DNA of 44,809 bases, from positions 1 through 44,809 of the forward strand of contig CAMYIO010000035.1 of the NCBI GenBank assembly GCA_947258515.1. The letters run 5' to 3'. Positions 4,039 through 10,861 of this stretch are shown one piece after another. The notes under the pieces are model-generated. The model ran no database searches. It worked only from the letters and a program-made list of their open reading frames with translations, and was not told the origin of the DNA. Positions within the stretch are counted from its first letter, which is position 1; each line of letters starts with the position of its first letter. Position numbers and translations under genes: made by a program. The DNA is from an uncultured Ectothiorhodospiraceae bacterium (GTDB lineage Bacteria; Pseudomonadota; Gammaproteobacteria; UBA9214).

Positions 4039-5589
4039 TCAGACATCGCCCAGTTGCGGGTGGGCGCGGGATTCCGGCTGGATTATCTTGTTAACGGCAT
4101 TGATATAGGCCTTGGCAGATGCAATGACAATATCCGTATCGGCCCCCTGCCCGTTGACAATGCGTCCGTCCAGATTCAGCCGCACCGTCACCTCGCCCTG
4201 TGAGTCCGTGCCGCTGGTGATATTGTTGACGGAATAAAGCTCCAGCTCGGTACCGCTGTTTACCAGCGCTTCAATCGCCTTGAAGGAAGCATCTACCGGT
4301 CCACTGCCCGAACAGGACACCTGCTGCTCCTCGCCGTCCAGCCACAGGGTGACATCGGCATGGGGTGTTTCCCCGGTTTCCGAGCACACCTTGAGAGCAA
4401 CAAGCTTGAGCCATTCATTCCCCGACTCCTGTCCGGATTCGGTCACCAGTGCCTGCAGGTCTTCATCGAAAATCTCGTGCTTCTTGTCAGCCAGGTCCTT
4501 GAAGCGCGAGAAAGCGTTATTGAGTTCTTCTTCAGAATCAAATTCGATCCCCAGATCCTTAAGGCGTGTTCGAAAGGCATTACGGCCGGAATGCTTGCCG
4601 AGCACGATACGGTTTGCCGCCCAGCCGACATCCTGCGCGCGCATGATTTCGTAGGTCTCACGGCTTTTGAGCACACCGTCCTGATGTATCCCCGATTCGT
4701 GTGCGAATGCATTTGCACCGACAATGGCCTTGTTCGGTTGTACGGCGAATCCCGTGATACCCGATACCAGCCGGGAACAGGTCATGATCCGGGTGGTATC
4801 CAGGTCGGTCTTGCAGGGAAAAATATCCTGGCGGGTCTGTACTGACATCACCACCTCTTCAAGTGCGGCATTACCGGCACGCTCACCCAGTCCATTGATG
4901 GTACATTCAACCTGGCGTGCACCATTCAGCACGGCAGACAGGGAATTACCCACTGCAAGCCCGAGGTCATTGTGGCAGTGTACGGAGAAAACCGCCTTGT
5001 CTGAATTGGGTACCCGCTCGATCAGGGTGCGTATCAATTCACCGAACTGGTGCGGCAGGTTGTAGCCCACCGTATCCGGAATGTTGACCGTATTCGCACC
5101 GGCTTCGATGACGGCTTCCAGAACGCGGCACAGGAAGTCGGTTTCAGAACGACCGGCATCCTCCGGTGAGAACTCGACATTATCGGTATATTGCCGTGCC
5201 CGTTTTACCGCCCGTACTGCCTGCTCAATCACCTGTTGCGGCTCCATGCGCAACTTCATCTTCATATGAATGGGCGAGGTGGCAATAAAGGTATGGATGC
5301 GGCCCGAGACGGCTGGCTTCAAGGCCTCGCCGGCGCGATCAATATCCTTGTCGAGTGCGCGCGCGAGCCCGCATACCGTACTGTCCGAAACCGCCCTGGC
5401 AACCGCCTGGACCGCTGCAAAATCACCCGGACTGGCAATCGGGAAACCGGCCTCAATGACATCCACACGCATACGTTCCAGCGCCTTGGCTATACGTACC
5501 TTCTCGTCACGCGTCATTGAGGCGCCTGGACTCTGCTCACCATCACGCAAGGTGGTATCAAAAATTATTAACTTATCCTGGCTGCTCAT
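4039..5589 (-). CDS. leuA: 2-isopropylmalate synthase
   Basis: LeuA condenses acetyl-CoA with 2-ketoisovalerate, the first committed step of leucine synthesis, and is normally feedback-inhibited by leucine. The 516 residues match the long LeuA type. The N-terminal [15 protein letters not shown] begins at residue 11, the metal-binding HCHNDLG lies in the TIM barrel, and [12 protein letters not shown] is in the linker. The C-terminal third is the leucine-binding regulatory domain. The ribosome site GGAG precedes the ATG. The gene is 304 bp downstream of pssA, and that gap holds a predicted leucine-rich leader peptide. Confidence 0.98.
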
Positions 5590-5652
5590 GGTTCAACTCC
5601 GTCGTGGACAGCGACTGCTACCTGCTGACCACCGTTACTCAGTATCGCCTGA

Positions 5653-5691
5653 ATCCAGCATACCAAACCCGCCTTTTGCAGGCTGCTGGAT
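5653..5691 (-). promoter_or_regulatory. Hairpin in the leuA leader
   Basis: Perfect 8-base arms (5653-5660 and 5684-5691, ATCCAGCA/TGCTGGAT) enclose a smaller 5-pair helix with one G-T pair (CCTGC/GCGGG around an AAAAG loop). It lies between the leucine-rich leader ORF and leuA. No run of T follows, so it is not a standard intrinsic terminator. A role in attenuation is only an inference. Confidence 0.35.
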
Positions 5692-5732
5692 CGAATGGTT
5701 TTGAAGTGCGTTTTACCTCGCCAGGCATGAAA

Positions 5733-5837
5733 TTATCTGCCCGAAGGCAGCAGTCGCAGAAGGGGCAACAGCAGAAGCAGACCTGCCAGGGCGGCGGTCG
5801 CCGGAGATACGCGAACAGTGTACATGTAACAACTCAT
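5733..5837 (-). CDS. Predicted leucine-rich leader peptide upstream of leuA
   Basis: This 34-codon ORF lies in the 304-bp gap between pssA and leuA. Residues 17-30 read LAGLLLLLPLLRLL: ten of these 14 are leucine, including a run of five. The density, position and length fit a leader peptide of the LeuL type, whose translation senses charged leucyl-tRNA. It has little in common with E. coli LeuL beyond composition. The ATG at 5837 has no clear ribosome site, and a candidate promoter directly upstream would leave almost no 5' leader. A short hydrophobic exported peptide or a chance ORF are the alternatives. Confidence 0.5.
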   Translation of the reverse strand: MSCYMYTVRVSPATAALAGLLLLLPLLRLLPSGR

Positions 5838-5845
5838 GACTCAAG

Positions 5846-5875
5846 ACTATAGAGCAAATGTTGCCGGATTTCCAA
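5846..5875 (-). promoter_or_regulatory. Candidate promoter before the leuA leader ORF
   Basis: TTGGAA (5875-5870) and TATAGT (5851-5846) are separated by 18 bases, resembling a sigma-70 promoter. The predicted start would fall near 5839, almost at the leader ATG. It lies just after the pssA stop, which would allow leuA expression independent of the ilv-psd-pssA transcript. Confidence 0.35.
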
Positions 5876-8913: not shown

Positions 8914-10608
8914 TTAAACCAGTATCATCTCGTTCTGACCGCCACCGGCCGGGATCATCGGGTACACATTTTCTTCCCTGTCAGTTATGAAATCCATAAA
9001 TACCAGCCGGTCTTTCAGTTTCAACATTTCAACCAGGGCGCCTTCAACATCACCCGGCCTGGTGATTTGCATACCGACATGCCCGTAACTCTCTGCCAGT
9101 TTCACGAAATCCGGCAGGGATTCCATATAGGACATGGCATAGCGTTTCTGATAAAAGAATTCCTGCCACTGGCGCACCATGCCCAGGTAACCGTTATTGA
9201 GGTTAATAATCTTCACTGGCAGTGAGTATTGTGTGCAGGTCGACAGTTCCTGGATACACATCTGGATACTGCCCTCACCGGTCACGCAGGCAACCGTGGC
9301 ATCCGGATGTGCGAACTGCACACCCATTGCGGCAGGCAGTCCAAAGCCCATCGTGCCCAGGCCACCCGAGTTGATCCAGCGCCGCGGTTTGTCGAACTTG
9401 TAGAACTGTGCGGCCCACATTTGATGCTGCCCGACATCGGAGGTGATAAAGGCATCCCCGCCGGTCAGCTTGTACAGGGTTTCTATCACATACTGTGGCT
9501 TGATCGCTTCACTGTCATGATCATATTTCAGGCAGTCCTTCGAGCGCCACTCATCAATCTGTTGCCACCAGTCCTTCAGTGCAACGGCATCTGAATGCAC
9601 GTCGTTGTTTTTGACCTCATTCAGCATCGCCTTGAGCACGTTTTTAACGCACCCCACGATCGGCACATCCACCTTGACGTTCTTGGAAATGCTCGCGGGA
9701 TCGATATCGACGTGCACGATGGTCGCGTGCGGGCAGAATTTCTCGATATGACCGGTGACGCGGTCATCGAAACGCGCACCGATAGCAATCAACACATCAC
9801 AGTGGTGCATCGCCATATTGGCTTCATAGGTGCCGTGCATGCCGAGCATGCCGACAAACTGCGGATCGGTTGCCGGAAAACCGCCCAGCCCCATCAAGGT
9901 GTTGGTGACGGGGAAATTCATGATCTTTGCCAGTTCGGTGAGCGACGCTGACGCATCACCCAGGATCACACCGCCACCGGTATAAAAGATCGGCCGTCTG
10001 GCAGTCTGCATCAACTTCACCGCGCGCTTGATCTGGCCGGTATGCCCGATGTGTACCGGGTTGTAGGAACGCATCTCAACCTTGTCAGGGTAGTGGAATT
10101 CGGCTTTTTCGGCAGTAATATCCTTGGGGATATCCACGACCACCGGACCCGGACGCCCCGTGGTCGCGACATAAAACGCTTTCTTGATCGTCATGGCCAG
10201 ATCGCGGACGTCTTTCACCAGGAAATTGTGTTTTACACAGGGACGCGTAATGCCGATGTTATCCGCCTCCTGGAAGGCATCATTGCCAATCAGGTGCGTC
10301 GGAACCTGGCCGGTGAACACCACCATGGGGATGGAATCCATATACGCCGTGGCAATGCCGGTTACTGCATTGGTGGCACCCGGACCCGAGGTCACCAGCA
10401 CCACGCCGGGCCTGTCACATGAACGGGCATAGCCATCAGCGGCATGCGTGGCGGCCTGCTCGTGACGCACCAGGATATGCTTTATCTTCTGCTGCGCATA
10501 CAGGGCGTCGTAAATGTGCAATACGGCGCCACCGGGGTAACCGAATATAATTTCGACCCCCTCTGCCTCCAGGGAGCGCACAAAGATTTCCGCGCCTGTG
10601 AGTTCCAC
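8914..10608 (-). CDS. ilvB: Acetolactate synthase large (catalytic) subunit
   Basis: This ThDP-dependent enzyme joins two pyruvates, or pyruvate and 2-ketobutyrate, at the branch point of valine/leucine and isoleucine synthesis. The 564 residues contain the N-terminal [14 protein letters not shown], the catalytic glutamate in [13 protein letters not shown] (Glu near residue 49), a central FAD-binding domain, and the ThDP motif beginning GEGS and ending NLNN. It could equally be called ilvI, as the sequence does not separate the isozymes. It is the first gene of the long minus-strand run and is preceded by a terminator-like signal. Confidence 0.97.
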
Positions 10609-10650
10609 CGATCCTTACTCCTGAGGTAAACCGTTTATATTCTGACTGCG

Positions 10651-10674
10651 AAAAAAAAAGCCCGTACACAGGGC
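10651..10674 (-). terminator. Terminator-like hairpin in the ilvB leader (possible attenuator)
   Basis: Read on the minus strand, GCCC (10674-10671), a 7-base loop and GGGC (10663-10660) are followed by nine T (10659-10651). It lies about 40 bases before the ilvB ATG and downstream of a candidate promoter. The neighbour on the other side is divergent, so no minus-strand gene ends here. That favours attenuation of the ilv transcript. The stem is only four pairs, so its strength is uncertain. No branched-chain-rich leader peptide was identified. Confidence 0.42.
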
Positions 10675-10701
10675 GGTTGGGTTGCATTCTTTAAATATGA
10701 G

Positions 10702-10730
10702 AAAGTACTGATATTCAAAGTAAAGGTCAA
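10702..10730 (-). promoter_or_regulatory. Candidate ilvB promoter
   Basis: TTGACC (10730-10725) is separated by 17 bases from TACTTT (10707-10702). The -35 is close to consensus and the -10 is weak. The expected start near 10696 would produce a leader containing the terminator-like hairpin at 10651-10674. Confidence 0.35.
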
Positions 10731-10861
10731 GGGATTCCATCGGCACAGTTCGCCACCCCGTGGCAATGCCGGTCGAACATCCGATGTGTGACGTGATAAC
10801 TTGTCCTGCACCCCTAACAACCTTACTATTAATGCAGATTTCTGACAGGATAGCCGGCTTC

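Follow-up and report, generated by a model that had tools for sequence, protein, structure and literature searches.

In an uncultured member of the Ectothiorhodospiraceae, the biosynthetic gene leuA is preceded by a short leucine-rich ORF whose Leu codons probably control leuA by leucine-sensing, ribosome-mediated attenuation, through an RNA switch that would not be of the classical kind. Ribosome-mediated sensing of leucine by the leader is in itself well supported by the sequences compared. Comparison across gammaproteobacterial loci brings out the leader, a promoter that leaves it nearly leaderless, a hairpin at its end (hairpin A), a pseudoknot behind that hairpin (element B), an excess of C over G and the absence of a conserved terminator. 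The window analyzed here is the whole stretch of 44,809 nucleotides, and the features discussed below are as follows.

4039-5589, minus strand: leuA, 2-isopropylmalate synthase, the putatively regulated gene (NF002087, 912 bits against a cut-off of 729; TIGR00973)
5597-5600, minus strand: leuA Shine-Dalgarno (SD) sequence GGAG, 7 nt before the leuA ATG at 5589
5652-5692, minus strand: hairpin C, with an extended -10-like TGnTATGCT (5657-5665) on its 3' side; seen only in the window's GTDB family
5708-5727, minus strand: element B, a predicted H-type pseudoknot supported by covariation; stem TGCCT (5723-5727) with AGGTA (5714-5718), loop GGCG (5719-5722), tail CGC (5708-5710) pairing with the GCG of the loop
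5733-5837, minus strand: leucine leader peptide ORF of 34 codons, MSCYMYTVRVSPATAALAGLLLLLPLLRLLPSGR*, from translation, conservation in relatives and a shuffle test
5737-5750, minus strand: hairpin A, CTGCC-TTCG-GGCAG, overlapping the last leader codons; covariation across 63-66 loci
5748-5789, minus strand: Leu-rich segment, 10 Leu in residues 17-30, carrying the recurrent end Leu-Arg(CGA)-Leu-Leu-Pro, from translation and relatives
5846-5851, minus strand: -10 box TATAGT of the leader promoter, ending 8 nt before the leader ATG
5870-5875, minus strand: -35 box TTGGAA of the leader promoter, with an 18 nt spacer and 9 of 12 consensus matches including the -10 box

The leader sits between pssA and leuA in a minus-strand series that runs acetolactate synthase small subunit, ilvC, psd, pssA, leader, leuA and uracil-DNA glycosylase. 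From size and position, the gene at 8914-10608 is probably ilvB. No short ORF rich in branched-chain amino acids was found upstream of ilvB in the window; at about 10609-10760 (minus strand), GCCCTGTGTACGGGC followed by a run of nine T resembles an intrinsic terminator and lies shortly before ilvB. A first-pass annotation of this DNA had described a 34-codon ORF in the pssA-leuA gap with ten leucines within residues 17-30 and five in a row. Translation bears this out and places the five consecutive leucines at residues 20-24. Among the 421 ORFs of 20-60 amino acids in the window, this one alone reaches 10 Leu in 14 residues, the next best having 7; dinucleotide shuffling of the pssA-leuA intergenic region did not yield such an ORF in any of 2000 trials. 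Given the shuffles and the wide occurrence of Leu-rich ORFs before leuA in Gammaproteobacteria, the leader ORF is not a product of chance.

The annotation had taken the ORF for a leucine leader peptide of leuA and had made this depend on its presence in related species. A Leu-rich ORF does precede leuA in almost all close relatives of the window and is kept there across the class, so that the assignment is strongly supported. Among the many gammaproteobacterial loci with such an ORF are those of Methylophaga, Sedimenticola, Methylococcaceae, Candidatus Muproteobacteria and the Lamellibrachia endosymbiont, and it is also seen in a broad anonymous sample of Gammaproteobacteria. When the 320 nt upstream of leuA were searched for an ORF whose last 18 residues include 7 or more Leu, 89 of 224 loci had one, as opposed to 1 of 224 after shuffling and 2 of 224 on the antisense strand. 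As in ribosome-mediated attenuators, a run of codons for the end product is found in a leader ORF upstream of a biosynthetic gene. The scan showed no leader before leuA in the purple sulfur bacteria Thiorhodococcus, Allochromatium, Lamprobacter and Marichromatium (loci L052, L064, L083 and L100), nor was one seen in a betaproteobacterial comparison, Neisseria leuA. A working set of 142 non-redundant leuA loci with a clear leader was selected on Leu content; Leu statistics on this set are therefore circular, while its promoter and RNA-structure results are unaffected. Across the class the peptide often ends in (L)RLLP, and only the Leu run and this C-terminal motif recur, the N-terminal half not being alignable between families. 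Across loci, the majority of leader Leu codons are the common CTG (56%), a point against attenuation; in its favor, the rare CTA makes up 7.6% of leader Leu codons versus 1.5% in the leuA coding sequence, which is about fivefold. The arginine codon CGA shows a similar ratio (27.5% of Arg codons at the leader end versus 5.8% in the leuA coding sequence, again about fivefold), often within Leu-CGA-Leu-Leu-Pro.

The class-wide leader promoter, typically TTGGCA-17-TATAGT or TATATT, is found in the same place, directly upstream of the leader. Counting ATGs 5-12 nt past the -10 box over the 142 loci gives 86 in the leader frame, compared with 5 and 3 in the remaining frames; the nearly leaderless arrangement is therefore conserved. 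With the start codon 6-9 nt past the -10 box, the 5' UTR would be about 0-3 nt, and the window transcript probably starts near 5839, about 0-3 nt before the leader ATG. The first-pass remark that the leader transcript would be nearly leaderless was correct, since the candidate promoter (5875-5846) ends 8 nt before the ATG. In a minority of loci (e.g., L041, L045, L066 and L074), the leader ATG is instead 27-28 nt from the -10 box.

Class-wide, hairpin A falls where the leader ORF ends and consists of 4-9 bp with a loop of 3-8 nt; in 95 of the 142 loci, this loop contains or touches the stop codon. It takes forms such as CTGCC-CTAG-GGCAG, CTGCC-GTAA-GGCAG, TGCCC-TGAG-GGGCA, TGCCGC-GCTA-GCGGCA and TGCGCC-GCTA-GGCGCA. 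The count alone says little, because 39% of shuffles also reach the lenient detection threshold. Matched arms pair better than GC-matched mismatched arms (t = -12.2, 66 loci), a value which arises partly by construction from arms picked for pairing; the diversity of the arms found at this one position does not. Moreover, the end of the peptide shifts with the arms (RR*, PH* or PR*, as in RLLLRR* and LRLPH*) while the hairpin persists, which indicates that the hairpin and not the peptide end is what is kept. Members of the window's genus often have a stable UNCG-type loop (TTCG or TGCG; UUCG in the window RNA), and their stop codon falls just past the hairpin. Hairpin A also overlaps the regulatory codons, as the hairpin of an attenuator should.

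Element B follows hairpin A after a spacer with a median of 11 nt and, class-wide, has the pattern NCCTGGCGAGGN-(variable N)-ACGC. Its variable third loop was misaligned by MAFFT, as was hairpin C; pairs were therefore counted in an ungapped subset for B and by script for hairpin C. In the ungapped subset of 32 sequences, 98.2% of cells are paired and covariation is 0.207, versus a shuffled mean of 0.069 (0 of 500 shuffles). The outer stem pair occurs as G-C, C-G, T-A, A-T, G-T and T-G. For the pseudoknot helix, pairing holds in 100% of cells of the same subset, as compared with 20-54% when the whole structure is slid to other registers. Between the loop G(G/A)CG and the tail CG(C/T), 70 distinct sequences give G-C 61 times, A-T 5 times, G-T 4 times and A-C never, in a search that left C or T free in the tail. 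As only one of the three pseudoknot pairs varies, the support comes from that pair, in about three independent lineages, and the evidence for loop:tail pairing is good but not overwhelming. In its geometry, B is in keeping with an H-type pseudoknot: the first loop is one nt long, a second loop is absent, and the A-rich third loop spans a stem of 4-5 bp.

A model of B (R1) matches the window at 5706-5728 with 34.5 bits and finds nothing comparable elsewhere in it. The exact pattern occurs at 56 sites in 276 genomes, one of them in the window's genome. We examined 24 loci with such sites, and those with a leader precede leuA, the exception being L255, where the downstream gene was not recognized. 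The idea that B also stands next to other genes was rejected: the remaining examined sites are without a leader and look like chance matches. L255 (genome G099) carries a second copy of the leader end and element B, in addition to that at L249. Many loci with a clear leader, such as L060, L077, L089, L091 and L097, have B altered or absent, and B is therefore not needed for the basic mechanism.

How these parts would act together can be proposed as follows. Transcription from the leader promoter would start within a few bases of the ATG, and translation would accordingly begin on an essentially leaderless RNA. With ample charged Leu-tRNA, the ribosome would pass the Leu codons and be released, allowing hairpin A, whose 5' arm consists of the last Leu codons, and pseudoknot B to form. 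The C-rich, G-poor RNA around and after A and B would then be exposed, and transcription would end before leuA. When leucine is short, the ribosome would stall in the Leu run and cover part of the C-rich segment as well as the 5' arm of A; leuA would then be expressed. Rho is the most likely terminator of leader transcription because there is no U-tract terminator; taken alone, Rho-dependent termination as the output step is a tentative proposal. The leader RNA is indeed rich in C and poor in G over a stretch that begins at the Leu run and extends about 60 nt beyond the stop codon; at 36-66 nt beyond it, C is 0.28 and G 0.17 (t = 11), and further on the bias is gone, a comparison made on leuA leaders only. 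This is weak evidence for a Rho loading region, which it would fit.

The output could also lie in translation. After a completed leader, the Leu run (CUGCU, CUCC) would pair with the leuA SD sequence, often GGAGCAG, and block translation, and a stalled ribosome would free it. Class-wide folding gives a mean pairing probability of 0.52 between the SD sequence and the Leu run, and including the Leu run lowers SD openness from 0.31 in shuffled sequences to 0.19 (t = -4.8), with no fall when it is left out. Some loci even look tuned, with SD GGAGTAG and leader CTACTCC in L047, GAGATAG and CTATCTC in L110, and GGAGAC and GTCTCC in L049. However, nothing points to specific coadaptation: the SD sequences of other genes pair with the Leu run as well as that of leuA does (difference 0.00), GC-matched tests at the leuA SD sequence reach at most t of about -2, and the predicted probability in the window is 0.15. 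A signal that had looked promising in individual loci (permutation p = 0.012) vanished under these GC-matched and other-gene controls. We keep such translational attenuation as a rival, and an unlikely one.

Less likely again is a regulatory role for pseudoknot B outside the switch, as an independent element that operates alongside the leader peptide and either binds a protein or small molecule or makes RNA polymerase pause. The sequence of B is conserved beyond the needs of pairing in the loop G(G/A)CG, the tail ACG(C/T) and the A-rich third loop; moreover, B lies 7-17 nt after hairpin A and is missing at some loci that retain the leader. Against this, the leader and hairpin A lie just upstream of B at the leuA loci sampled, and it is on these grounds that a joint function is argued.

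Classical ribosome-mediated attenuation with an intrinsic terminator, as in E. coli leuLABCD, would account for the layout of a Leu leader peptide, a 5' hairpin over its Leu codons and a second structured element downstream. An alternative pairing of A with B, weakly supported across loci, is even the predicted minimum-energy fold of the window's 58-nt segment. Yet no hairpin in the window is followed by a T-run, a scan there found no intrinsic terminator, and a hairpin with a T-run occurs in 19 of the 142 loci versus 31 in reversed controls. The competing, antiterminator-type pairings of A and B show coadaptation of only t of about -2.2 to -2.5, compared with -8 to -12 in positive controls, and a classical 2:3 antiterminator is thus weakly supported. 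Pairing of the leader CTGCGA with the ACGC tail, as in the window's predicted fold, was rejected, as it is not coadapted (t = -1.1). A search of Rfam 15 gave no match for the leader region, and Leu_leader (RF00512) was found neither at its gathering score nor at an E-value of 10. The classical mechanism is thus very improbable here, and the suggestion of the annotation that the mechanism may differ from it is supported. A conserved short hydrophobic peptide with a function of its own, next to leuA by accident, would fit the hydrophobicity and constant position of the peptide but is scarcely credible, since only its Leu run and C-terminal motif recur and its end changes wherever hairpin A does. 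Taking the terminator, pairing, SD and C/G results together, we therefore favor Rho-dependent attenuation and place control of translation second.

The annotation had placed its hairpin further downstream, at 5653-5691, and had seen no T-run behind it. Both observations stand, as hairpin C is real (-20.9 kcal/mol, z = -3.9, without a T-run), but it is found at the family level only, whereas conservation reaches far outside the window's family for hairpin A and pseudoknot B, neither of which the annotation had noticed. Within that family, the third arm pair of hairpin C is A-T, G-T or G-C, and its 3' side retains TTTGnTATGCT. A -10-like hexamer starts 34-28 nt before leuA in 41 of the 142 loci, all in one 6-nt bin where about 15 would be expected. 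Because of the TGnTATGCT in hairpin C and these hexamers just before leuA in many loci, a second leuA promoter that bypasses the leader is possible.

In E. coli tnaC, the leader peptide controls Rho-dependent termination just past its stop codon; TnaC stalls by sensing free tryptophan and not through codon starvation, and no pseudoknot is involved. The proposed output resembles tnaC (named in PMC1262725) in its leader-controlled Rho termination and differs from it in the signal sensed and in having a pseudoknot. Among described systems, the LEU element that precedes leuA in Actinobacteria comes closest, with a Leu-run leader peptide, a pseudoknot and no typical terminator (Seliverstov et al., 2005; PMC1262725). 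Gene, Leu run, a conserved pseudoknot between leader and leuA, and the missing terminator are all shared, so that the two are alike in outline, with the pseudoknots likened by description and not by sequence. They differ in that the base stem of the LEU element, between Leu codons and the leuA SD sequence, encloses its pseudoknot, a pairing not specifically supported in gammaproteobacteria, and in that the gammaproteobacterial pseudoknot is preceded by stop-codon hairpin A. The Streptomyces leuA leader (leuL1) is transcribed leaderless (PMC8079986), like the leader described here. In Sinorhizobium meliloti trpL, the leader peptide RNA also starts at its ATG, but the amino acid is Trp and not Leu, and the transcription attenuator releases a small RNA (PMC7298713). 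The enterobacterial leu attenuator (RF00512 Leu_leader; Shewanella leuA attenuator, PMC2659441) shares a Leu leader before leuA and a 5' hairpin overlapping it; however, with no terminator/antiterminator pair, no Rfam match and a promoter abutting its ATG, the present leader is not a member of that family. In the open-access literature, outside which many subscription papers lie, we found no published description of this gammaproteobacterial leader; an earlier mention in the survey of proteobacterial attenuators by Vitreschak et al. (2004) is possible.

It is conceivable, if somewhat doubtful, that these leaders form a gammaproteobacterial leuA class that has, in place of a terminator and antiterminator, a leaderless Leu peptide together with a stop-codon hairpin and an H-type pseudoknot, and that has a mechanism, or even an ancestry, in common with the actinobacterial LEU element. 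If true, one pseudoknot-based type of leucine attenuator would exist in two phyla. Amino-acid attenuation is a textbook mechanism built on terminator and antiterminator hairpins. A broad set of Gammaproteobacteria retains its sensing half, the leader peptide, without the textbook output half; what it conserves instead is a hairpin at the stop codon, joined in many lineages by a pseudoknot missing from Rfam 15. These loci supply many natural variants with which to test how a leader peptide functions without a terminator, a question that has stood for actinobacterial leuA leaders since 2005.
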